Source of the DNA: a virus
IMG/VR virus record: IMGVR_UViG_3300035034_001897
Span: 1-64,000 of that record
Strand: one strand, 5' to 3'
DNA length: 64,000 bases
In this document: positions 5,976 to 34,682 of the stretch, in pieces
Numbering within the stretch: position 1 is the stretch's first letter
Layout of the letters: each line of letters opens with the position of its first letter
Notes under the pieces: model-generated
Told to the model about the DNA's origin: nothing
Seen by the model: only the letters and a program-made list of their open reading frames with translations
Database searches by the model: none
Program-made: the position numbers and the translations under genes

Positions 5976-6054
5976 TACAATTAGGGTCATTCATTAGTAG
6001 ATGTTTTTTGTCAATTTCACTACTATCGTTTGGCCTTAATTTATATACCAACTT

Positions 6055-6255
6055 ATGATAAGTCAATATAAAAACGTATCAACACACACCTACGCAGATG
6101 TAAGTACAGTATATTGGCAGGCAAGAGTGACTAGAAAAGGCAAGATATTAATTAATAAAAACTACAGAGATGAGCGTGTAGCTGCACTTGCAGTAGATAA
6201 AGCACTAATCAGCGCTGGATATGATCCAGTAAATATTCTCAAAAAAGTTCCCTAA
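6055..6255 (+). CDS. AP2-like DNA-binding protein
   Basis: 66 residues almost entirely matching the AP2/ERF fold pattern: YKNVS near the N-terminus, YWQARVTRKGK as the central strands, then RDERVAALAVDKAL as the helix. In phages this domain occurs alone or in HNH homing endonucleases and binds DNA through the three-stranded sheet. Stand-alone here, just upstream of two promoter-like repeats, so a regulatory role is conceivable. Confidence 0.65.
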   Translation: MISQYKNVSTHTYADVSTVYWQARVTRKGKILINKNYRDERVAALAVDKALISAGYDPVNILKKVP

Positions 6256-6259
6256 AGTG

Positions 6260-6290
6260 TTGTCAGAAAGATATTAAAGTAGAATCAACA
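6260..6290 (+). promoter_or_regulatory. Degenerate copy of the phage promoter
   Basis: Carries GTTGTCAGAAAGATATTAAA exactly as in the active-looking copies, but the -7 position reads AATCAAC instead of TATCTTTA. GTTG (6259-6262) and CAAC (at 6286-6289) bracket it as an inverted repeat. Probably a decayed promoter or a protein-binding site that lacks promoter function. Confidence 0.45.
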
Positions 6291-6371
6291 ACGAAATTGC
6301 TCAACGTGAGAGTTTCATAAAATTGATACATACTTTAAAACAATACATCTAAAATAAATATTAGGTAACTG

Positions 6372-6402
6372 TTGTGAGAAAGATATAAAGGTAGTATCTT
6401 TA
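6372..6402 (+). promoter_or_regulatory. Phage promoter, TTG-N20-TATCTTTA
   Basis: TTG at 6372-6374 and TATCTTTA at 6395-6402, spacer 20. Spacer text GAGAAAGATATAAAGGTAG is shared with the copies at 12032 and 35384. AAAGATA and TATCTTT form a dyad around the -7 box. Drives the gene at 6438 and the downstream run. Confidence 0.8.
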
Positions 6403-6437
6403 TGTAAAGGAAACAATAACACATTAAAATCGGAAAT

Positions 6438-6773
6438 ATGAAAACTGTCGAACAATTAAATCAACTATTCAAAGGTAAATCAATCAACATTCATCTATAT
6501 GCAGAATTCTCAGACTGTCCAGATGAAGGGCAAGAGAAAACAGACTACATTCAATATTTAAAAGATGAGAATGATTGTCTTGAAGACTGGACAGATGAAG
6601 ATTTTGAAGGAATGCTTGAGATTAGTAAAAGACAACTATTATCGATGGATCCTACAACTGAAGAGTTAGTAGAGAAGAGAGCAGTGCAAGTACAATCTAT
6701 AAGTTGTGATGGAGATAGTTTCGCAATAGTATGGTTCGATGGATTAGATATAGATGTAACAACTTACTATTAA
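6438..6773 (+). CDS. Acidic hypothetical protein
   Basis: 111 residues, strongly acidic (many Asp/Glu, few basic residues), as seen in some DNA-mimic or inhibitor proteins, though nothing specific is recognised. The start is fixed by AAAATCGG at 6426-6433, four bases before ATG, and by the promoter 36 bases upstream. Confidence 0.65.
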   Translation: MKTVEQLNQLFKGKSINIHLYAEFSDCPDEGQEKTDYIQYLKDENDCLEDWTDEDFEGMLEISKRQLLSMDPTTEELVEKRAVQVQSISCDGDSFAIVWFDGLDIDVTTYY

Positions 6774-14271: not shown

Positions 14272-15459
14272 ATGAACTTAGACGATCAAATTAGAAATAG
14301 CATTACACAAAGACGTGATGTCATTGCAGGTAACATAGTTAAAGGTAAACCATCTATGCCAATTGGAACCATTTCAAATGGTCGTAAAAAGATAGCAGAA
14401 GGTCAGTGGAGAGATGTTGTTGATGGAAACAAAAAGCCTAAACAAAACAAAGAGAAGATTAAACTCAGTGCAAAAGTGCTTGCATTAAATGAGAAACATC
14501 AACTCAGTCGATTGCCAATAGATATGCCTCATAATGAAGTGATCATCAATAAAGGTGAAGCGAAAAGTAATTGGATTCTCAAATGGATTGATCCTAAAAC
14601 ACAGAAGGCAGTTACAGCATATAGTAAAGCATTTCTCAAGAAGAATGCACAAGACAAATGGAAGCGTATAGAAAACGTATCTAAGAAAGATATCAGTGCA
14701 ATCAAGATTGGTGCAGACAAATTGATAGTAGGTAGTAATGCTGCTGAACAACAAAGTGGTGCCATAGTAAGCATCATCAGTCAAACTGGGTTGAGACCTG
14801 GAAGTAGAAGTGGTTTCAACAGCACACAAAACAGAGGAGTAAGTACACTCGCTAAAAAGAATATCAAGATTGAGGGAAGTAAAATCACTTTTGAATTCAA
14901 AGGTAAATCGTACAAGAACAACACTGCTGAGATAAATGATAGTGTATTAGCTAACTATCTCAGTGAAAGAATGAGTAAGGTTAAAGGAGAAGACTCCTTC
15001 ATATTCAATACTACAATTAACAAGGTAAGAGATGACTTTAAAGATAGTATCACACCAAATGATTCTATCAAACTCAAAGATATGCGAACATACATAGCAA
15101 CTGACATTGCGAGAGATATGTTAATGCACAATAAATTTGAAGTGCCTCAAAAAGGTGCAAAGAAAGCAATACAAGGTAAGTTGATGGAAGTATTTAAAGC
15201 TGTAAGTAATCAGCTGAACAATAGTCCTACAATGGCTAAAACAAGCTATATTCATCCTAACGTAATCAATGAATGGCTAGAAGGTTTAGGTGTGAAAGAA
15301 GCAGATATGTTTATGATGAAAGCTGTCAATTACACTGAGGCATTAAAAGCAATGAAACTTAGAAGAGACCCTGACAATATTGAGGGGGACGATAACGAAG
15401 ATTTTGACGATATTGATGAATATAATCTACCAGATTGGTGGGACCCAACATTACAATAA
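14272..15459 (+). CDS. Topoisomerase IB-like enzyme with N-terminal tag
   Basis: 395 residues. Type IB topoisomerases nick one strand through a tyrosine and relax supercoils. The catalytic set is visible: R175 in QTGLRPGS, K212 in FEFKGKS, R272 in LKDMRTYIAT and Y326 in MAKTSYIHP, in the correct order. The first 50 residues carry the tag shared with four or five other proteins here (QIRNSITQRRD...IVKGKPSMPIGTISNGRKK...GQW). The tail is acidic (residues 365-395). Virion delivery is an inference from the tag; a purely intracellular role in replication or packaging is equally possible. Confidence 0.85.
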   Translation: MNLDDQIRNSITQRRDVIAGNIVKGKPSMPIGTISNGRKKIAEGQWRDVVDGNKKPKQNKEKIKLSAKVLALNEKHQLSRLPIDMPHNEVIINKGEAKSNWILKWIDPKTQKAVTAYSKAFLKKNAQDKWKRIENVSKKDISAIKIGADKLIVGSNAAEQQSGAIVSIISQTGLRPGSRSGFNSTQNRGVSTLAKKNIKIEGSKITFEFKGKSYKNNTAEINDSVLANYLSERMSKVKGEDSFIFNTTINKVRDDFKDSITPNDSIKLKDMRTYIATDIARDMLMHNKFEVPQKGAKKAIQGKLMEVFKAVSNQLNNSPTMAKTSYIHPNVINEWLEGLGVKEADMFMMKAVNYTEALKAMKLRRDPDNIEGDDNEDFDDIDEYNLPDWWDPTLQ

Positions 15460-15461
15460 CT

Positions 15462-15917
15462 ATGGATTTAGAAGAGCAAATTAGATCAAGAAGACGTGAA
15501 CAAGCTGCACAAATTGCACAATCATTAGGTGTAGATTTGATTAAAGGTAAGGCTGCTGATGAAGGTGAAGAAAGAGAGTGGGGTGGTAAGAAATATAAGA
15601 AAACTAGTGGTAAATGGATACCAGTTACTGATGGAAAAGATAAAAAGAAGGATGATGACCCGAAGAATTCATCTAAAAAGTCAGAGGATCCTAAATCAGA
15701 TGGTAAAGCAAAACCTAGTGCAGGTGAAGGTGTTGATAAGCACGAAATAGCACAACTTACTGCATTGAAAGCTACAATGGAATCTAATCCAGAAAAAGCA
15801 TATGAAATCTTCCAATCACTCAGTCCAGAAGCGCAACAAGCTGTTCCTCAAGATGTGGTTAACAAATTGGTTGAAGGTAGTCATAGTGAAGGTGAAGATG
15901 AGGCTGAAGGTGTTTGA
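15462..15917 (+). CDS. Tagged acidic protein, perhaps N-terminal half of a frameshifted gene
   Basis: 151 residues from ATG 15462, 2 bases after the topoisomerase stop. The N-terminus bears the shared tag (LEEQIRSRRREQAAQIAQ...LIKGK then KKYKKTSGKWIPV). A Lys/Asp/Ser-rich linker follows, then a helical part with LSPEAQQAVPQDVV. It ends in acidic residues at a TGA (15915-15917) while the same acidic composition continues in the +1 frame. The context GGT-GTT-TGA-G resembles +1 shift sites such as the prfB CTT-TGA; alternatively an indel or two genes. Confidence 0.65.
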   Translation: MDLEEQIRSRRREQAAQIAQSLGVDLIKGKAADEGEEREWGGKKYKKTSGKWIPVTDGKDKKKDDDPKNSSKKSEDPKSDGKAKPSAGEGVDKHEIAQLTALKATMESNPEKAYEIFQSLSPEAQQAVPQDVVNKLVEGSHSEGEDEAEGV

Positions 15918-16947
15918 GGATGACGATCAAGAGTCTTTTGATCAAGCAGCTTATGATAAGGCTATTGAATCTAAAGATACTAATGCAGTTATTGAGCAAG
16001 CAGTTAAGTTGAAGGATGAAGAATTGCAAGAGAAAATTGACATACATTATCAAATGGCCAGTGCAGGAGCAACTGGTGGTCACACAAAGTTAGTTAATAT
16101 CTTAGGTAAAATAAAAGAAGCGAGATTAGAAGGTTTAAATAATGTAAACGATTCTTACTCAAAAGAGCAGATTCACAGTGAAATCGATAGTCAGTTAGAA
16201 AACTTCTTTGAAGACACTTCAAATATAGATGTTGAAGGATTAAAAGAAGAGGTTGAAAAAAGATTTCAAGAAGAAGATAAAAAAGAAAAGGCAACTAGTG
16301 ACAGAGATATGCAAGACGTAGTGTCAGCAATCTTAACAGATATGGTTGATGAGCAGAGTGAAGATGTAAAGAAAAAACAAGAAAATTCTCTAAGTCAGTG
16401 GAATGATGAATTAGATCCTGATGACGCTTTTTTTGATATCAAAAATCAAGTGAGAGAAGATTATGGAATAGACGAGCTTGATGAGGAAGGTGAGGAAGAA
16501 AATGAAGACGATATAATGAGAGAAGCTAATGATATATTTAGAGTCCGATTCGGATTTGATAATTATCAAGACGCTATATCTGCGATGGAAAGTAAGATGG
16601 AAAGTAAGAGTGAAAGTTCAAATAAAACTTATGATGGCATTAGAGAATGGGTAGGAGACTATAACGACGCTCAAGTAGAAAATGTAATCGAAGGCTTTAA
16701 TGAATCAGGATTTACTCAAAAGAATCTTGAGATAGCTCAAGGAAGGTCGTCAGAAGAACATATGAATAGAGTAGGAGAGCGAGCAGAATCTCTTGCAAAA
16801 AAAATCGTAGCAAACCAAAAAAATCCAATGGATCAAGATGAGGTAGCTGAAATTGTAGAAGGTATGATTGAATCAAAGTTCAAGATTACAGATTGGGATA
16901 ATCAAAAAAACATTAAAAAATCATTAGACATCTTATTACAATCATAA
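15898..16947 (+). CDS. Acidic helical protein, perhaps C-terminal half of the preceding gene
   Basis: From ATG 15898 the frame encodes 349 residues; the frame is open further upstream (to 15802) but that part is shadow of the preceding gene. The protein is very acidic and helical (VEKRFQEEDKKEKATSDRD, LDEEGEEENEDD). No family recognised. It carries no tag of its own, which fits its being the downstream half of the tagged protein at 15462. Two bases separate it from the AAA+ gene. Confidence 0.6.
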   Translation: MRLKVFEDDDQESFDQAAYDKAIESKDTNAVIEQAVKLKDEELQEKIDIHYQMASAGATGGHTKLVNILGKIKEARLEGLNNVNDSYSKEQIHSEIDSQLENFFEDTSNIDVEGLKEEVEKRFQEEDKKEKATSDRDMQDVVSAILTDMVDEQSEDVKKKQENSLSQWNDELDPDDAFFDIKNQVREDYGIDELDEEGEEENEDDIMREANDIFRVRFGFDNYQDAISAMESKMESKSESSNKTYDGIREWVGDYNDAQVENVIEGFNESGFTQKNLEIAQGRSSEEHMNRVGERAESLAKKIVANQKNPMDQDEVAEIVEGMIESKFKITDWDNQKNIKKSLDILLQS

Positions 16948-16949
16948 TT

Positions 16950-18323
16950 ATGGAATTAGAAAATCAAATTGCACAGAAGAGAGAATTGCAAAAATCCAAC
17001 ATTAATCAAATGATGGGTATTCAACATTCACAACCTCAACCTATAGTTGAAGTTGATATGGATGATGTGCGAAAAGCCATAACTCAAATCCAATTAGGTA
17101 GAGAGGAAAATCTTGACATCATCAAAGGGAAAGTTCTTCCAGTTGGAACCATTCGTAAGAGAGGTGATCAAAACTGGATTAAGATTTCAGAAACTGGACC
17201 TAGTGCAAAGCAATGGAAATATCACTCTAAAGCAGGTAGTGAGAAAGGTCAGACAGCTAAGATTGAAGCAATGAGTGAGCCTGAAAAGATGGAGTCAAGA
17301 GCACTTGCAAGTAAACTATTCACACTTGTCAATAAGGTAGGTGGAGCAAAGACGTTTGGAGAGCAAATGAAACTTATTGAAGACGCTGGTATTACAGATC
17401 CTGAAAAAGTGGTGGAGCTTACTAACCAAAACTTATCTGACGTATTGAAATATATGGATGGCAAAGGAATGGAAAAGAAGCGTCAAGACTTCAACATCAA
17501 AGACGAATTAGCGAAGTTAGAGATGATGGATGCTATTAAGACTGGTTTTGATAAAATCGATGTAAAAGATCGTTGGGAATCATATAGAGTATTTCTTGAT
17601 CTAGTTGCAAATGGTACTGCAAAGAGTATGATCGCTTATGGTACGGGAGGTATAGGTAAAACGTACAATGCAACAAAAATATTCGCAAAAAACAACTTAG
17701 CTGAATATGATGGAGATGTTCACGAAGCTGGTGATAGTAATTATGATTACGTTAAAATCACTGGTAAAACATCACCAACTGCATTATATGCAGCATTATA
17801 CGAACATAATGGTAAGTGTTTGATGTTCGATGACTGTGATAGTGTGTTAGAGCACGATGATTCAATCAACATTCTCAAAGGAGCGTTAGATAGTGGTGGA
17901 GATAATTCAATCGCTTATGCATCAGGTAAGAAGCTTAAAACAGAAAAAGGTGAGACAGTTCCTCAACGATTTAAGTTTACTGGTAGGGTAGCATTCATTA
18001 CCAATCTTACAGCTGAAAAAATGCCTCAACCTCTTCGTAGTAGAGCATTTACAGCAGATTTAACAATGACGCCAGATGAGACGGTAACGATGATGGAGGA
18101 AATTATCCACAAAATAGAATTTCAAAATGCTCAAGGTGCAGCGATACACGTATCAACTGAAGATAGACAGTCAGCAATCGACTTTATTTCAGATAATGTG
18201 AACAATATCAATGTTCGAGATCTCAATTCAAGAACGCTTGGGCAAATAGCAATAATCAAAAAGAAATTGAGCAGCCATCCAACATTAGATTGGAAAACTG
18301 CTGCGATTGCAATGTTAACATAA
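16950..18323 (+). CDS. AAA+ ATPase with N-terminal tag
   Basis: 457 residues. Walker A GTGGIGKT at 231-238, Walker B LMFDDCD at 291-297, sensor-1 FITNLT at 349-354 and arginine-finger candidates in LRSRAF (362-367) form a complete AAA+ core at about 205-400. The N-terminal 100 residues hold the shared tag in a longer form (LENQIAQKREL...DIIKGKVLPVGTIRKRG...QWKYHSK). A helical linker lies between. Likely a ring ATPase acting on DNA or protein; partner unknown, though the acidic protein just upstream is a candidate. Confidence 0.8.
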   Translation: MELENQIAQKRELQKSNINQMMGIQHSQPQPIVEVDMDDVRKAITQIQLGREENLDIIKGKVLPVGTIRKRGDQNWIKISETGPSAKQWKYHSKAGSEKGQTAKIEAMSEPEKMESRALASKLFTLVNKVGGAKTFGEQMKLIEDAGITDPEKVVELTNQNLSDVLKYMDGKGMEKKRQDFNIKDELAKLEMMDAIKTGFDKIDVKDRWESYRVFLDLVANGTAKSMIAYGTGGIGKTYNATKIFAKNNLAEYDGDVHEAGDSNYDYVKITGKTSPTALYAALYEHNGKCLMFDDCDSVLEHDDSINILKGALDSGGDNSIAYASGKKLKTEKGETVPQRFKFTGRVAFITNLTAEKMPQPLRSRAFTADLTMTPDETVTMMEEIIHKIEFQNAQGAAIHVSTEDRQSAIDFISDNVNNINVRDLNSRTLGQIAIIKKKLSSHPTLDWKTAAIAMLT

Positions 18324-18524: not shown

Positions 18525-18956
18525 ATGAGCTTAGAGCAACAAATACGTAACAGAAGAATCGCACAAGCAAATCAAATCACAGATATGTGTGGTGGAGATA
18601 ATCTCGTCAAAGGTAAAGAAATGCCAGTAGGTACTGTTAGTAATGGCAGAAAGAAAATGCCAAATGGAAGTTGGGTGCCAGTTAGTGAAGAAAAAAGCTC
18701 CTCTAAGACACCTCATCCTAAACTAAAAGATTCTCATAGATGGCAAGTAGAATCTCATATGAAGCAAGCAATTAAAGGAGATAAAAACATAACAATCTCT
18801 ATGATGGGAGGAGATGTGACTACTCATAAGAAAGGCGAAGAGTTTATGTATAGAGCAACAGTTCAGTCAAAAACTAGAGATAAGATGAGAGAATCTTTAG
18901 ATAGTGCAGGAGTAGACATCTTGAGTGCAAAGAAGTTCGGAGAATTATTTAATTAA
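18525..18956 (+). CDS. Small tagged protein
   Basis: 143 residues. Residues 1-55 are the clearest copy of the shared tag (LEQQIRNRRIAQANQIT...NLVKGKEMPVGTVSNGRKK...GSWVPV). After a Ser/Lys linker comes a compact C-terminal domain of about 85 residues (HPKLKDSHRWQVESHMKQA to the end) that I do not recognise. Reads as tag plus cargo domain. Confidence 0.65.
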   Translation: MSLEQQIRNRRIAQANQITDMCGGDNLVKGKEMPVGTVSNGRKKMPNGSWVPVSEEKSSSKTPHPKLKDSHRWQVESHMKQAIKGDKNITISMMGGDVTTHKKGEEFMYRATVQSKTRDKMRESLDSAGVDILSAKKFGELFN

Positions 18957-18965
18957 CGAGTCGCA

Positions 18966-19496
18966 ATGGATCAAATCAAAAAATCAATCGAATCTATCTC
19001 AAGAGAAGATAACGCAGACATCCTAATTAAAGGAAAAGCCTTACCAATTGGAACGATTAAAAAGCGTCCTAACGGCAATTTCATTAAAACTGCAAGTGGA
19101 TGGAAATATCACTCGAAGCACGACAAGAATCAGAAAGCACAAGCTAGTGAGAAGAAAAGTGAAAGACCTCAAAGACACCAATTCAATTCTCAACAAGAAT
19201 ATGAAAAGAAGTTGTTATCTCACACTGGACCTGGAGGAGGAAATCAAGATAAAGGTAAATCTCCAGATGGAATTTCCGAGAGTATGCTTAAAAAAGTAAA
19301 TCTAGCGGATAACCATTTAGAAGGTAAAGTTTTTAATATAGGTAAAGGAGCTCGACTCAGAGTCGATAGTGTAAAAGGAGACATTGCTAAAATAACTAAA
19401 ATAGATAAGTTTAACAATACCTCAACACACGAGGTGTCTGTAAAAGACAATAGTGGAGAAGGAGGTTTATTTTCATATAAAGAAATTAAAAAATAA
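18966..19496 (+). CDS. Small tagged protein
   Basis: 176 residues. The tag (IKKSIESISRED...DILIKGKALPIGTIKKRPNGN then GWKYHSK) matches the AAA+ version most closely, including the terminal WKYHSK. A polar Lys/Gln linker and a C-terminal beta-rich domain of about 60 residues follow (KVFNIGKGARLRVDSVKGD), unknown. Overlaps the next small frame (TAATG). Confidence 0.65.
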   Translation: MDQIKKSIESISREDNADILIKGKALPIGTIKKRPNGNFIKTASGWKYHSKHDKNQKAQASEKKSERPQRHQFNSQQEYEKKLLSHTGPGGGNQDKGKSPDGISESMLKKVNLADNHLEGKVFNIGKGARLRVDSVKGDIAKITKIDKFNNTSTHEVSVKDNSGEGGLFSYKEIKK

Positions 19497-26846: not shown

Positions 26847-26946
26847 AGAAAGGCTTGGTAGTTTAACTCAAAATGGTGAGATTTATCCATTAAGTTTACT
26901 CAACAATAGTAAAAGATGTAACAAAACTCTTCAATGTCATACTTAG
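26821..26946 (+). CDS. Small hypothetical protein
   Basis: 41 residues (MLVKSYVPKERLGSLTQNGEIYPLSL...), overlapping the frame before and the portal start after. Both overlaps fit the packing here, but evidence is thin. Confidence 0.35.
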   Translation: MLVKSYVPKERLGSLTQNGEIYPLSLLNNSKRCNKTLQCHT

Positions 26947-28649
26947 ATTATACCATTCCTACATCACAAGCATCATCATCACTCGACAGTGAACTACAGA
27001 GAATTCAAGTCGAGAAGGGTCAGATTGCTCAACGAGAATATAGAGCACTATCTCAAGCATTGTCATCAGACAATCCTAATGACATCATTAAAGCCAATAC
27101 TTATTGGGAAGATGTTCAAAACAGACAAGATAGTGGAGTCAAAACTAGACTAGTTGATCCTAATGAATGGACTCAAGGTGCTGGCTATAAACATAAAAGA
27201 TTTCAACTAGATTATAGTACATTGAGAAGGATGGTGTCAACTACTCCTATCATTAAAGCTATTGTAGGAACTAGACAGGCTCAAGTGAGTGCGTTTTCAA
27301 CTCCACAGAAGAGTAAGTATGAAACTGGATTCGTTATTCGTAAGAAAAGGGAGTTTTATACAGACGAAGAGCCTATTGTAACTCGAGAAGATAAGCAGAC
27401 TATTAATGAATTAACGAAATTCATTCTTAATGGTGGTGATGACGAAAATGCGTGGAATGGAGACACTTTTGATACGTTTCTTAAAAAACTAGCAAACGAC
27501 TCACTAACGTTAGATCAAGCGTGTTTTGAAATAGTTAGAAGTAATAAAGGTGAGCCAGTTGAATATCTAGCAGTAGATGGAGCGACAATAGTATTAGCAG
27601 ACACACATAACGATGAGCAAGAGGTTGTTGATAGAGAATATGATCACGCAGGAAATAAACGTAAAAGAGTAAGAGGCTATTTACCATCATACGTTCAAGT
27701 AATTGATTCAGTAATTCACAATGAATACTATCCTTGGGAAATGTGTATGGGAATTAGAAATTCTACTACAGATATCAGATCGAATGGGTATGGTAAAAGT
27801 GAAGTAGAGGAATTAGTTAGTATTATTACTTGGATGTTATATGGAGACACATATAACGGAAAATTTTTTAGTCAAGGTAGCAATCCAAAAGGAATGCTTA
27901 AAGTAGGTTCAGGAGTTAATAGAAACCGACTCGCAGAGTTTAGACAGCAATGGTTATCAATGGTAGCTGGAGTTCAGAATGCTTGGAAGGTTCCAATGGT
28001 TGAGGGAGATGTTGAATGGATTGATATGCAGAAAGGCAATCGAGATATGGAGTTCTCGGCGTGGCAAGAATACTTGATAAAGGTTGCGTGTGCAGTATTT
28101 AAGATCGCACCAGAAGAGGTTGGATTTAATATCGATAAGAGTGGAGGTCTTGGTGGAGAAAATGATAGCGATGTCAAAATTAGATATTCGAGAGATAAAG
28201 GATTGAAGCCAATGCTGAAATCATTTGAGTTCTGGATTAATAAGTGGTTAGTTGCTCCTAAAAATGCAGACTTTGAGTTTAAGTTTGTAGGATTAGATAC
28301 AGATAGTGAAGAGAAAGAGGTTGAACTACTCAATAAAAAAGTTGAGCATGGAATGGGTCTTAAAGAATATCGTCGTGCAATTGGATTGCCAGAAGATTTA
28401 GAAGAAGGAGACTTCCCACTTAACAATATATATGTTCAAATGCAAGGACAATTAGCAATGCAAGAGCAGAGTGAAGAAAATGGAGAATTCGTTGATCAAG
28501 ATCAGGCAAGTGAAGAAGATGATTTCTGGAACAGTATTGATATGGAAAAAGGTGTGCTTGATCAAATGAATCAATTGAAAGTGTATAAAGGCAACCCTAT
28601 GATGAAGGATGCATTAAATATGTTAATTGGAGATGGAGCAGCAAAATAA
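26934..28649 (+). CDS. Portal protein
   Basis: 571 residues. Portal proteins form the 12-fold ring through which DNA enters and to which the tail attaches. Support: size; QLDYSTLRRMVSTTPIIKAIV near the start; FFSQGSNPKGMLKVGSG in the middle; and WQEYLIKVACAVFKIAPEEVGF, the usual portal stretch before the wing. An acidic, Met/Gln-rich C-terminus follows. Head morphogenesis, protease and capsid genes lie downstream in the usual order. Confidence 0.85.
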   Translation: MSYLDYTIPTSQASSSLDSELQRIQVEKGQIAQREYRALSQALSSDNPNDIIKANTYWEDVQNRQDSGVKTRLVDPNEWTQGAGYKHKRFQLDYSTLRRMVSTTPIIKAIVGTRQAQVSAFSTPQKSKYETGFVIRKKREFYTDEEPIVTREDKQTINELTKFILNGGDDENAWNGDTFDTFLKKLANDSLTLDQACFEIVRSNKGEPVEYLAVDGATIVLADTHNDEQEVVDREYDHAGNKRKRVRGYLPSYVQVIDSVIHNEYYPWEMCMGIRNSTTDIRSNGYGKSEVEELVSIITWMLYGDTYNGKFFSQGSNPKGMLKVGSGVNRNRLAEFRQQWLSMVAGVQNAWKVPMVEGDVEWIDMQKGNRDMEFSAWQEYLIKVACAVFKIAPEEVGFNIDKSGGLGGENDSDVKIRYSRDKGLKPMLKSFEFWINKWLVAPKNADFEFKFVGLDTDSEEKEVELLNKKVEHGMGLKEYRRAIGLPEDLEEGDFPLNNIYVQMQGQLAMQEQSEENGEFVDQDQASEEDDFWNSIDMEKGVLDQMNQLKVYKGNPMMKDALNMLIGDGAAK

Positions 28650-29001: not shown

Positions 29002-29392
29002 ATCACTGTCACTAACTGACTTTTTAAAATCCATTACAGATGTAATGGAAATGGTCATCTCTCCAGACACAGTGGTAGTAATGAAAAAGCCTCACGCGAA
29101 ATATATTGCTGGCATAAGAGTGAAGTACAATTATCAACTTAAATATTCAGTAGAGCAAGATTCAACTATAACTGCATTACAACAAAAAGTTGGAGAGTAT
29201 ATTAAAGGAGAATCTCTACTATTTCGACGCATAACTACAAAAGATACTGTCATTATTGCTCTACAAACAGTTAATAAAGGATTAGAAAGAGAGAGAGATG
29301 GTTTTGAGTCTTTATGGAAGGATCAGAAGAAAACTACTTGGTTAGTTGGAATAATAGCGGTATTAACTACAATATTAGGTTTTACGTTATAA
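28934..29392 (+). CDS. Exported protein with C-terminal TM, possible spanin partner
   Basis: 152 residues beginning inside the preceding gene in another frame. The N-terminus (MKNFVVLIVMTLCTCAFSQE) is a signal peptide with two cysteines that could act as a poor lipobox; residues 134-152 form a second TM. A lipid or exported N-terminus with a C-terminal TM is the topology of a u-spanin, bridging outer and inner membranes. With its Rz-like partner this may be a two-part spanin. Confidence 0.5.
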   Translation: MKNFVVLIVMTLCTCAFSQESNKSLSLTDFLKSITDVMEMVISPDTVVVMKKPHAKYIAGIRVKYNYQLKYSVEQDSTITALQQKVGEYIKGESLLFRRITTKDTVIIALQTVNKGLERERDGFESLWKDQKKTTWLVGIIAVLTTILGFTL

Positions 29393-29526
29393 TGACACAA
29401 AAAAAGAAAAAATACTTAGATCGACCGAGATTTCCAGTGATAAATGATTATGAGAATGATTTCAGAAAATCTTGGAAATTGTCAATGAAGATAGCTTTGA
29501 AAGAAATTGAAAATAAAATCAAATGA
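29392..29526 (+). CDS. Small basic protein
   Basis: 44 residues from ATG 29392, which overlaps the preceding stop; the longer frame from 29314 is shadow. Basic (MTQKKKKYLDRPRFPV...). TGA overlaps the next ATG. Unknown. Confidence 0.45.
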   Translation: MTQKKKKYLDRPRFPVINDYENDFRKSWKLSMKIALKEIENKIK

Positions 29527-29660
29527 TAGAAATTACAACATCAATTCACAAACGTCAGCAACAAATTCGTGCCAATATAGTGAAAGGATTAAAGACTCCT
29601 ACATTTAGTGGATTTAAGTTAGAGAACAAATACAACTATAAGGTTTACAGATTTCAATAG
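29523..29660 (+). CDS. N-terminal fragment of frameshifted InPase-like gene
   Basis: 45 residues ending at TAG 29658. The start (IHKRQQQIRANIVKGLKTP) resembles the shared tag of the 14-19 kb cluster in shortened form. In the other frame from 29645 the sequence LQISIENKQGSTRKWKDGD continues as expected for the family, so one base appears missing near 29643 (AAG-GTT would have been AAG-GGT). Fragment of one gene with 29720-30016. Confidence 0.55.
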   Translation: MIEITTSIHKRQQQIRANIVKGLKTPTFSGFKLENKYNYKVYRFQ

Positions 29661-30016
29661 AGAATAAGCAAGGATCTACACGTAAATGGAAAGATGGAGA
29701 TAAAGAAGGTTCTACGTTAATGCACTATGATTATGGATATATTAGAAATACTGTAGGAAACGATAACGATCACGTTGACTGCTACATTAATTCAAAAAAT
29801 ATAGTTGATCAAGTCTTTGTTATTCATCAAAATAGACCTAAAACTGGTCAATTCGATGAAGATAAGGTAATGTTAGGTTTTGATAGTGCAGACGAAGCTA
29901 AGAGAGCTTATTTAACTCATTACGATAGCGAAAAATTCTTTGGATCGATGACTGAAATGACCCTCGATCAATTCAAAAGCAAAGCGTTAGGTAAAAAAAA
30001 TCGTAAAATTCAATAA
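29645..30016 (+). pseudogene. InPase-like (inorganic pyrophosphatase-type) domain, frame-shifted from its start
   Basis: The body of the gene; read alone it would start at ATG 29720 (98 residues). MHYDYGYIRNTVGNDNDHVD holds a D-x-D-x2-D metal site (D15, D17, D20 from that Met), and GQFDEDKVMLGFDSADEAKRAYL follows. This order is the phage InPase domain (a pyrophosphatase-like fold found in polyvalent proteins co-injected with phage DNA). Whether it is active, regulated by frameshifting, or broken is open. Stop overlaps the next start. Confidence 0.7.
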
Positions 30017-30981
30017 TGATACTTAGTCCAAATCAAATTACAGATTTACTGTCGATTATAGACAAATACACTTTGACGTTTGCAGCACACCATATAGGAG
30101 TGCAAGGAATGAATCAAGCTCAACTAAATTTACTGCAGCAATCAGGAGTGAATATATCTAAGATAGCAATTCAAACATCAAATATTAATCAAGCATTTAG
30201 GTTTGGAATTCTTAGCAGTGCGTTAGGAGATGCAAATGCTAAGAATATGAGTTACAGTCAACTCAAAGGATTTATTAGTAGTGGAAAGATGTTTAAGTTG
30301 TCAGCTATTGAAAGTGCAGCTCTACAAAATCTACAATATCAAACAGTAACGCAAGTAGTCAAATTTGGAGATAAGATTAAAAACGATATCATTGACAAGT
30401 TGGTGTACGCTGACAAGAAAAATAATGCAGTTAAGCACAGTAAGGTTGTTACAGATGCAGTCAACAACGCAATACAAGAAAGAAAAGGAGTGCAATCAGT
30501 AATTTCAGATATTGGTCACGAATTAGATAATTGGGATAGAGATTTTGGTAGAATAGCAGATTTTGTAATGCATACAGCATTTGAGGAAGGTAGAGCATTG
30601 AAAATTATGCAGACACAAGGAAATCAATCTTTAGTATATAAAGATGTGTACTTAGGAGCTTGTCCTCATTGCATAAAAAACTATCTTACTGGAGGAATTG
30701 GAAGTGCGCCTAAAATATTCACTATTCAACAAATAACAGCGAACGGGACTAATGTAGGGAAGAAAGTGAAAGATTGGTTGCCAGTATTAGGACCTCTTCA
30801 TCCTTGGTGTAGATGTACATTAATGCAAGTACCTAACCAATTCAATTTAATAGACTATAACAACGGCTTATGGTTATGGGACGGAAGACAGTTTATAAGA
30901 AATGCTGATAAATATCAGCGCAAAGTAAGGCGAAATAGTAAAGTAAAAGTAACTGTTAACGGAAAAACAACGGAAGTATGA
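30016..30981 (+). CDS. Head morphogenesis protein, SPP1 gp7 / Mu gpF type
   Basis: 321 residues. The C-terminal part has DVYLGACPHCIKNYL and later LHPWCRCTLMQV, the cysteine/histidine pattern of the Mu F-like minor head protein domain. The N-terminal helices are variable. In SPP1 the homologue binds the portal and acts during DNA ejection. Its place between portal and protease is standard. Confidence 0.8.
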   Translation: MILSPNQITDLLSIIDKYTLTFAAHHIGVQGMNQAQLNLLQQSGVNISKIAIQTSNINQAFRFGILSSALGDANAKNMSYSQLKGFISSGKMFKLSAIESAALQNLQYQTVTQVVKFGDKIKNDIIDKLVYADKKNNAVKHSKVVTDAVNNAIQERKGVQSVISDIGHELDNWDRDFGRIADFVMHTAFEEGRALKIMQTQGNQSLVYKDVYLGACPHCIKNYLTGGIGSAPKIFTIQQITANGTNVGKKVKDWLPVLGPLHPWCRCTLMQVPNQFNLIDYNNGLWLWDGRQFIRNADKYQRKVRRNSKVKVTVNGKTTEV

Positions 30982-31227: not shown

Positions 31228-31512
31228 ATGAAAACATTTATTTTCGAAAACGCTGGAAAAACTTTAAAAGTAGCAATTAAATGCGATGTTTTCGCAACTA
31301 ATGCGCAACTACAAGAGCCAGGATTTGATACTCGATTTACAGCAATGACAGTAGAAGATAGCGATGAAGCAATTCAAGCTGGACTGAACATTAATGAGAT
31401 GGAGCAAAATCTTCAAGGATTGAAAGCAAAAGCTACAGAATTAGGATGGTCTCTTTCAGTAGCTGACATCAATGAAGAAGGTGGAACAATTGAATTAGTT
31501 GCAGCAGTATAA
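31228..31512 (+). CDS. Small acidic protein upstream of protease
   Basis: 94 residues, acidic, alpha/beta (MKTFIFENAGKTLKVAIKCDVF...). First gene after the late promoter and overlapping the protease start by one base, hence likely head-related. Not recognised. Confidence 0.55.
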   Translation: MKTFIFENAGKTLKVAIKCDVFATNAQLQEPGFDTRFTAMTVEDSDEAIQAGLNINEMEQNLQGLKAKATELGWSLSVADINEEGGTIELVAAV

Positions 31513-33092
31513 TGAAACAGCAATTCCAAACACATATACCTCTTGAGTTAATCAAAGGAAAGGATCAAGAAGGCAACCCTATTATGAAAATGAGAGGTGT
31601 TGCTTCTACTCCATCCGAAGATGCAGATAAGGAATTTTTAGAGCCTAAAGGATTTGACTCTGAATATTTCCTCAAGCACGGATTTATGAATTGGAATCAT
31701 CAAGCAAACAACGATCCGTCAGCAATTGTTGGCAAGCCTACTGGAGCAAGTGTTGATGGAGAAGATTACGTAATAGACTTCAATCTATTTCCAGATAGCA
31801 AAAAAGCTCAACAAATCTATGAATTGCAAAAAGTTCTCGAATCTCAAGGACTTGCGTTAGGTTTATCTATCGAGGGTAAAGTCCTTGAGAGAGATCCTTT
31901 AAATAATAGTAGAGTAACTAAAGCTAAAATAACTGGATGTGCTATCACGCCTAATCCAAAGAATCAAGATACAGTAACTCAAATAATTAAGGGTCACGAT
32001 TATGATGCATTAATTAGCGATTCTGACGAAGAGGACGAAGAGGATGAAGATGGTGATAAGAAAGAGAAGGCTTTATCTGCAGCATCAGCTAGTGGACAAG
32101 CAATAACAAAAGAGTCTCTTGATGGAGATTTAAAAGACATTACACAAAGTAAAAAATTAACCAAAGGTGAGGTTATTGAGAAAATTTCACTAGATTTACC
32201 ATCCCTAAACGAGGATCAAGTTAAATCTATTTATAATTTAACACATAAAATTCAAAAAGCAATCGATATGGATACTGCAACAAAACAAAAAGAAACTCCA
32301 ACAATTACTCCAGAAACGTTAAAGAAAGCGTACGATATACTAAATTTAGTATCTCCAGAAAAAGCGTTAGAAAAGAGTGAAGCTGGCAATAATGATTTGT
32401 CAGGTAATGACGGACTATCTCTTGAGGAAATCACAGCAAAGAAGAATGAACTGGAAAAATCTCTTGCAGCAGTTACTGAGCTTGAGAAAGCGTGTAAGAC
32501 TGAAAAAATGAATGACGACGACGATATGAAGAAGTCGGAAGATGATGATAAGAAAGATGATGATGATAAGAAAGATGATGATGCAGACGACGACAAAAAA
32601 GACGACAAAAAAGACGACAAAATGGAAAAAGGTCTTGGTGATACTGTAATAGGGCAGAACAATGACGAATTAATCAAGTCACTTACTGCAGTATTTAAAG
32701 GAGAGCTTGGTCAAATAGAAGCTGGATCGAATGAAAAATTCAAAGCTGTTGGTCAATTAATGAAGTCTTTCACTGGAACAGTAGAAGCTATTGACGAGCG
32801 ATTATCTGCTTTTGAAAATCAGACGAAAGGACGTAAGTCTGTTACAACTCAAAAGCAACACGTAATTGAAAAGTCGTTTGCAAGCGATCAACAAGACGTT
32901 CAAGGTGACCAAAAACAATATTTGAATTTGACAGCACACAAAACACAGATTTCAAAAGCTCTTACAGACAGTTTTCTAGCAAGCGAGAATAAAGATGAGA
33001 CTTTAAGAAAAGGAATACTATTATATGATCAATCTGGACAAGCAAATCCAACAATTCAAGCGAAAGCGAGAGAATTAGGATTGATCAAGTAA
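31512..33092 (+). CDS. Prohead protease fused to acidic scaffold
   Basis: 526 residues. Residues 1-160 resemble HK97-type prohead proteases: MRGVASTPSEDAD, catalytic His in MNWNHQA (H63) and Ser in LGLSIEG (S119). The rest is a low-complexity, highly charged helical region including a run of Asp and Lys (about 334-372), as expected for a scaffold that is degraded during maturation. Fusion of the two in one chain is known in other phages. It sits directly upstream of the capsid gene. Confidence 0.8.
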   Translation: MKQQFQTHIPLELIKGKDQEGNPIMKMRGVASTPSEDADKEFLEPKGFDSEYFLKHGFMNWNHQANNDPSAIVGKPTGASVDGEDYVIDFNLFPDSKKAQQIYELQKVLESQGLALGLSIEGKVLERDPLNNSRVTKAKITGCAITPNPKNQDTVTQIIKGHDYDALISDSDEEDEEDEDGDKKEKALSAASASGQAITKESLDGDLKDITQSKKLTKGEVIEKISLDLPSLNEDQVKSIYNLTHKIQKAIDMDTATKQKETPTITPETLKKAYDILNLVSPEKALEKSEAGNNDLSGNDGLSLEEITAKKNELEKSLAAVTELEKACKTEKMNDDDDMKKSEDDDKKDDDDKKDDDADDDKKDDKKDDKMEKGLGDTVIGQNNDELIKSLTAVFKGELGQIEAGSNEKFKAVGQLMKSFTGTVEAIDERLSAFENQTKGRKSVTTQKQHVIEKSFASDQQDVQGDQKQYLNLTAHKTQISKALTDSFLASENKDETLRKGILLYDQSGQANPTIQAKARELGLIK

Positions 33093-33152: not shown

Positions 33153-34682
33153 ATGGAAAACTTAACAGTACCCTTAGCGTCATATTCGCACGGAAGTGGT
33201 TTCGGAGCAGATGCAAGTCAGCAAGCAAATTTGAGCGCGTCTCAACTAGCTGAATTGTCAAAAGCCCTTGAAGCTGGTCAGTTGCAAGGTGGAGCAATGG
33301 GTAACCCTGCGCAATCAAACGGTGGTGCACTAAAGACAGAGTCTTTAGAAAGCTCACTTAAACTAATTACTTTCCGTGAAGCGGATATTCGTTTTTGGAA
33401 GAGATTCCCAAAAACAGCTGCTTATAATACGGTAGAAGAGTACAACCAACACACGAGCTATGGTACTGATCGTGGAGGATTCAATAACGAAGGTGAATTG
33501 CCGGAAGAAGAAGACTCTAGCTATGTACGTAAGGCAGAACACGTGAAGTATTTAGGTGTAACTAAATCAGTTACCCACCCAATGCAATTGGTGAATACTA
33601 ACGTTGGAGATATCATTCAGAAGGAAACTACTAATGGTATTATGTGGATCTTACGTAAAGCTGATAGAGCTTTATTTTATGGAGATGAGAAAGTTGTTTC
33701 TCAAGAATGGAATGGTTTATATGCTCAGCATTTAAACAATGATCAGTTTGCTAACTTAGAAGAGTATTACAGCTCTCCATTAGTAATTGACCTTAGAGGT
33801 TCTGCTCTTACAGAAGCTAACATTGAGAGTGGAGCTCAAGTACTTTTAACGAAGTTTGCTCAACCTAACTTAATGGTTGCACCTCCAGTAGTATTTAGTG
33901 AATTTGCTAAAGGATTCTACGCACGTCAACGTATTGCAACGGGAGGAAGTGTAAATGGTAATGTTACTGGCGCTACAATGGGTCAACACATTAGTAACTT
34001 CCAATCTATGTACGGATTGATTGACTTTGAGTATGACATCTTTGCTGCGAAAAACCCAGGGAAACTTTCTACAGTAGGAGGTACATCACCAAAAGCACCT
34101 ACAGCACCTACAGTTGGAGCAACTCCAATAGCAGTTGTAAATGCAGACGGACAGTCTCGTTTCAATGACGGAACTGGTGATTATTACTACGCAGTTACTG
34201 CTATAAACCGATATGGTGAATCAGCAATGACTCAGTTAGGAGGATCTGTTACTGTTGCAAACGCAGATGATAGTGTAGATTTACAGTTTACTGCGACACC
34301 AGGACCTTACACTCCAAATGCTTATGTAGTTTATCGATCTAAAAAGAATCCTTCTGGATCTTTTGCAATGACAACGATGTATCCTATCGCTACAGTACCA
34401 GTTGCTGGAACAGATGCTAAGAGAGGTTCTCTTGCAAATGGAGTTGATGGTGGTGCAGCAGGAATTGTTAGAGATAGAAATAGAATTCTACCTGATACTC
34501 AAGAGGCTCTTCTTTTACAAGGAGATACAGATGTGATCGAGTTCAAGCAACTTGCACCTCTTATGAAAATGCCACTTGCGAAGTTGAGTCCAGCTGACCG
34601 ATTTATGGTCTTGCTTTATGGTACTCCAATTGTGTACGCACCATCTAAGATGATACGTTACATCAATATTGGTAAAGCGTAA
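33153..34682 (+). CDS. Major capsid protein with Ig/FN3-like insertion
   Basis: 509 residues. Support: position after protease-scaffold and before a strong terminator; an N-terminal arm rich in Gln/Ala/Gly that could be cleaved; ITFREADIRFWKRFPKTAAYNTV and the later ALFYGDEKVV typical of HK97-fold capsids of large myoviruses. Residues about 312-425 (APTAPTV..., YYYAVTAINRYGES, AYVVYRSKKN) form an FN3/Ig-like domain inserted near the C-terminus, which would project from the shell. The final part returns to the capsid fold. Confidence 0.85.
   Translation: MENLTVPLASYSHGSGFGADASQQANLSASQLAELSKALEAGQLQGGAMGNPAQSNGGALKTESLESSLKLITFREADIRFWKRFPKTAAYNTVEEYNQHTSYGTDRGGFNNEGELPEEEDSSYVRKAEHVKYLGVTKSVTHPMQLVNTNVGDIIQKETTNGIMWILRKADRALFYGDEKVVSQEWNGLYAQHLNNDQFANLEEYYSSPLVIDLRGSALTEANIESGAQVLLTKFAQPNLMVAPPVVFSEFAKGFYARQRIATGGSVNGNVTGATMGQHISNFQSMYGLIDFEYDIFAAKNPGKLSTVGGTSPKAPTAPTVGATPIAVVNADGQSRFNDGTGDYYYAVTAINRYGESAMTQLGGSVTVANADDSVDLQFTATPGPYTPNAYVVYRSKKNPSGSFAMTTMYPIATVPVAGTDAKRGSLANGVDGGAAGIVRDRNRILPDTQEALLLQGDTDVIEFKQLAPLMKMPLAKLSPADRFMVLLYGTPIVYAPSKMIRYINIGKA

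Follow-up and report, generated by a model that had tools for sequence, protein, structure and literature searches.

The InPase domain of phages has been described from polyvalent proteins (PF18823; PMC5512222). The phage InPase was proposed to be packaged, and to remove pyrophosphate or to act on nucleotides at an early stage of infection (PMC5512222); packaging and injection of such domains were inferred by Iyer et al. 2017 (PMC5512222). Another InPase is that of the Pseudomonas phage portal protein Pa193 gp19 (PDB 9b41), in which residues 529-765 are without density (PMC11042391). Here we describe an InPase-type gene that lies in the head cluster of a tailed phage and is cut, in the present record, by one single-base frame shift.

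The sequence analyzed (the window) is positions 1-64,000 of a virus record (G000) that is 78,946 bases long, and the window genes described below are on its plus strand. The window contains a tailed-phage head cluster with genes for a portal protein (26934-28649; PF04860, E 2e-25), a MuF-like minor head protein (30016-30981), a head maturation protease (31512-33092; phrog_1028, E 1e-32) and a major head protein (33153-34682; phrog_752, E 3e-83). The MuF-like protein on its own has no Pfam match, and its identification is based on hhalign, which aligns it with the MuF part of MuF-InPase fusions at a probability of 95% (E 2.6e-8); when viral contigs were queried with this protein, no match was confirmed. 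The head protein has its kin among SPO1-like and Bacteroidota phages. The nearest relatives are all uncultured (L026, L027, L028-L032 and L033-L035) and share 64-81% head protein identity with the window. A host was sought through bacterial genomes and none was found.

A split InPase gene between the portal and MuF-like genes

The InPase gene sits between the portal gene and the MuF-like head gene, the latter adjoining the 3' side of the InPase frame. It is preceded by a small gene of 44 amino acids (29392-29526; MTQKKKKYLDRPRFP...ENKIK), which has homologues in L026, L028, L029 and L032 and whose stop overlaps the next start, at 29523, in an ordinary ATGA overlap. The ORF that begins there (29523-29660, ATG to TAG) encodes 45 amino acids, MIEITTSIHKRQQQIRANIVKGLKTPTFSGFKLENKYNYKVYRFQ: a tag-like start and strand 1 of the InPase domain (LKTPTFSGFKLENKYNYK) are followed by the out-of-frame residues VYRFQ and the TAG. 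The rest of the domain lies in the -1 frame (29642-30016), which begins GLQISIENKQGSTRKW and is open without interruption from 29642 to the stop codon at 30014-30016. This frame matches the PF18823 InPase profile with 129.8 bits (E 8.1e-38), against a cut-off of 26.8. The predicted catalytic residues (the E of SIEN, DxDxxD and DExK) are all retained and all lie 3' of the break, and the conserved acidic metal-binding residues, in DNDHVD and FDEDK of the 29642 frame, align with invariant columns of alignment A1. On this profile and alignment evidence, the gene codes for a small phage InPase-domain protein of the PF18823 family, with a predicted type I inorganic pyrophosphatase fold.

The interval that holds the break extends from the TAA of the -1 frame to the TAG of the zero frame (29639-29660). 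Since the TAA at 29639-29641 bounds the -1 frame upstream, the switch of frame must lie between 29639 and 29657. Homology places it at ~29642, where GLQISIEN... begins, in the turn that connects strand 1 of the domain to strand 2. A single InPase gene split by a one-base frame difference is what the first-pass annotation had described, and both frames are present as stated there; its start for the shifted frame, 29645, lies three bases downstream of the point at which homology begins.

The nearest relative with an InPase, L026, carries the gene as one ORF of 204 amino acids (6034-6648) in a syntenic position, between the MuF-like gene and a membrane-type gene downstream of the portal, as in the window. 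Its product aligns to three consecutive frames of the window, those of 29392-29526, of 29523 and of 29642, so that one ORF of L026 covers what the window encodes separately as small gene, N-terminal piece and InPase domain. Identity is 62.9% after the break and 43-58% before it. The small upstream gene is also free-standing in L028, L029 and L032, and therefore only the second joint, between the 29523 and 29642 frames, is abnormal. The L026 protein scores 140.8 bits against PF18823, and its AlphaFold model (pLDDT 88.8) places strand 1 at residues 18-22 and strand 2 at residues 25-31, with a predicted two-residue turn joining them and no extra hairpin at that place. The top Foldseek matches of the model are only to type I inorganic pyrophosphatases (E 5e-4).

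In all 24 further InPase loci found by search, the frame runs uninterrupted through the equivalent turn. No split copy was found among these and L026, nor does any of them have the InPase as two separate genes, the arrangement that the earlier annotation had named as evidence contrary to its reading. In L019-L021, L023 and L024 (match region 6001-6264 onward) an apparent intein, CVSPETKI...VTHNC, interrupts the InPase metal site at its DC.

Origin of the frame break

We favour, with modest confidence, the reading that the break is a one-base sequence error of the record over the reading that it is a true lesion. The living phage would then probably make one InPase protein of about 160 residues. 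Between the window and L026, for which synonymous sites are saturated, the encoded protein is under normal constraint on either side of the break (pN/pS 0.34 and 0.44; MuF-like gene, 0.37; portal gene, 0.30), and the break is therefore either young or not real. Copies of the stretch with a variable gap at the break were sought in viral contigs and none were found among those available, which may lack near copies.

Four more one-base breaks occur in the 78,946-base record, at ~15912, 66834, 68263 and 78880. Breaks were detected by tblastn against relatives, a method by which ~53.8 kb of the record can be tested; in four relatives the same procedure gave one break in G001 and none in G002, G003 and G004. 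The excess of one-base breaks in the record over its relatives argues for record errors. Homopolymer lengths are not depressed in the record compared with the relatives, and hence no specific (long-read) error type is visible. Our own coding-frame model (Viterbi) found zero breaks in the record, but the clear ones were among those that it missed and it is thus too insensitive. The number of one-base discrepancies means that other split genes of this record need to be treated with care.

The break at ~15912 cuts a tagged gene (15465-16947) that runs on in one frame in all relatives; L032 reads KVFDDD where the shifted frame of the window reads KVFEDDD. The sequence at this site, GAAGGTGTTTGAGG, bears a loose likeness to the layout of the RF2 +1 frameshift. 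The break at 66834 lies outside the window, inside the tag of another tagged gene (66753-67194; L048 6753-7194). That at 68263 (L048 8263) falls in a six-T run of a QueE gene, and the 22 residues past it match a relative at 82%. The last, at 78880 (L048 18880), is in an SSB-like gene, with just 66 bases left before the record ends. The one break in G001 (L051 13752) is in a FolE-like gene, which belongs to the same 7-deazaguanine pathway as QueE.

A true recent mutation, marking a past or ongoing loss of a dispensable InPase gene by the phage, is less probable but a credible competitor. The product would be the truncated 45-residue peptide, perhaps together with a fragment restarted at the ATG at 29720. 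Every interior break of the record hits an accessory gene (InPase, two tagged genes and QueE), a distribution that fits real loss as well as it fits error. InPase is absent from sister phages, which have other genes in the slot, so that it appears dispensable, and a comparable break exists in the FolE-like gene of G001. Against real loss, no decay is seen beyond the single shift: 124 stop-free codons follow the break, under a constraint like that of the neighbouring genes. For a working phage, a total of five breaks, including that in an SSB-like gene, would also be high.

We consider it highly improbable that anything at the InPase break is programmed or by design. Programmed -1 ribosomal frameshifting, joining the two frames into one protein, would account for the conservation of both frames, and TAAGGT is common to two of the breaks in the same codon phase; seven in-phase TAAGGT sites, however, occur in intact ORFs without a shift. 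The overlap has no XXXYYYZ slippery heptamer in or near it, nor any codon pair able to re-pair in the -1 frame, and a shift past 29642 would lose the conserved GLQISIEN strand. As there is no slippery site and the split frame is not conserved, with the relatives (24 of 24 loci, and L026) all single-frame, this reading is rejected as very unlikely. Least likely is a design of two real genes, in which a short tag peptide is made separately from an InPase that restarts internally at the ATG at 29720. This ATG does have a purine-rich stretch upstream, but strands 1-3 would be missing from the product, together with the conserved E and R of SIENKQGSTR, and none of the homologues is split.

The N-terminal tag of the 14-19 kb genes

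Several proteins encoded at 14-19 kb begin with a common tag, and the first-pass annotation had counted the InPase as a sixth tagged protein. The tag itself is real, with five clearly tagged genes in the window and a sixth, at 66753, outside it. As seen in the proteins from 14272, 15465, 18525 and 18966, it consists of an N-terminal helix, an [IV]KGK step and a P(I/V)GT...GxW stretch. An HMM was made with these four tags and nine from relatives as seeds; it finds two genes that were not seeds, at 16950 (E 2e-10) and 66753 (E 1e-9).

The tagged proteins have unlike cores. The protein from 14272-15459 (E 5e-18 as a seed of the tag HMM) has a topoisomerase IB-like core (PF01028, E 6e-16), and its gene sits away from the replication genes. 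It is followed by the frame-broken gene at 15465-16947 (E 7e-24, also a seed), by an AAA-type ATPase (16950-18323; phrog_1250, E 2e-37), by a protein with a weak match to Arc-like repressors (18525-18956; seed, E 4e-22; phrog_1539, E 0.002) and by a protein whose function is unassigned (18966-19496; seed, E 1e-19). A tagged ATPase-like gene of the relative L034 (36-2444) contains a LAGLIDADG element (PF14528, E 2e-6), probably an intein.

The likeness of the InPase start (MIEITTSIHKRQQQIRANIVKG, 29523-29588) to this tag is real but partial, as judged from profile scores. An HMM of the helix half gives it 13.5 bits, a score that none of 5000 shuffles reaches, and this value is inside the leave-one-out range of the true tags (4.7-27.5 bits); the helix ends, as expected, in [IV]xKG. 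It ranks 21st among 2046 N-termini from five genomes, directly behind the known tagged entries and as the top untagged one. The P(I/V)GT...G(K)W half of the tag is absent, and the whole-tag HMM gives only E 0.1. Nor is the tag kept in the closest homologue, L026, the N-terminus of which scores 4.3 bits. The claim of a sixth tagged protein is thus plausible, but it is supported only for the helical half.

Cleavage by the head protease at the KG of the tag was considered and is not claimed, since the preceding residue is not conserved: it is V or I here and mostly E in the relatives, and no clear cleavage motif was seen at this position. A tag at the N-terminus of the NUDIX protein was likewise considered, and is weak, 206 of 5000 shuffles scoring as high. 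Searches by tblastn for the tag sequences in cultured phages gave none. The tag HMM does find matches in Chryseobacterium phage MA9V-3, where the gene before the head protease encodes a NUDIX protein whose C-terminus bears the tag's second half (E 3e-6).

It is a tentative idea, and on balance a doubtful one, that a common short N-terminal tag directs to the head a series of mutually unrelated enzymes, among them the topoisomerase IB-like, AAA ATPase, NUDIX and InPase proteins. Such a modular cargo system would be found in a group of uncultured phages, with one relative infecting Chryseobacterium, and would be comparable to that of the T4 capsid targeting sequence, to which the tag shows no sequence relation. 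Proof that the shared tag carries proteins into the head would establish it as a new phage cargo address.

Function and comparison with known systems

In L027, L028, L029 and L032 a NUDIX hydrolase and tagged genes take the place of the InPase between the portal and MuF-like genes. The NUDIX hydrolase is seen in this head-cluster slot at 2892-3290 of L027, 5594-6019 of L032 and 13556-14263 of L066, and portal-NUDIX fusions are known in other phages (phrog_15528). The exchange of InPase and NUDIX in the slot points to removal of pyrophosphate or of a nucleotide as a common task. By analogy with the described systems, the gene likely provides a head-associated, possibly injected pyrophosphatase. 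The protein would be carried inside the phage head or on its surface, close to the MuF-like or the portal protein, perhaps positioned there by its tag-like N-terminus. It might enter the cell together with the DNA and remove pyrophosphate or a nucleotide-like substrate, which would aid early transcription and replication.

Four known systems resemble this locus in part. T4 has internal proteins with a capsid targeting sequence, in which several unrelated cargo proteins of the head share one short N-terminal address; the tagged proteins described here may be analogous, although the likeness is one of idea only.

The polyvalent-protein InPases (PF18823; PMC5512222) share with the window protein the profile match, the conserved acidic residues, the lack, in the model, of a hairpin between strands 1 and 2, and a head-gene neighbour. 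That the domain is typical of injected polyvalent proteins, as had been suggested from the sequence, agrees with that work. The window protein differs in being small and free-standing, with a tag-like start and a frame that is broken in the record, and no second domain besides the InPase was found in it or in the 204-residue L026 homologue, so that it is not itself polyvalent.

The portal-InPase of Pseudomonas phages (phrog_4660; PDB 9b41, Pa193 gp19, residues 642-750) has the same domain in the same head and portal neighbourhood, but there the InPase is at the C-terminus of the portal protein and in the window it is a separate gene.

The MuF-InPase fusions of uncultured phages (L002-L010), with 53-58% identity to the window domain, likewise couple the InPase to a MuF-type head protein. 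One of them, at 3619-6384 of L004, has an apparent intein in its MuF part, which is not found in its close relatives L002 and L003. In these fusions the two proteins form one polypeptide, whereas in the window they are encoded by adjacent genes, and the window adds to the InPase family a free-standing member whose gene neighbours a MuF-like one.
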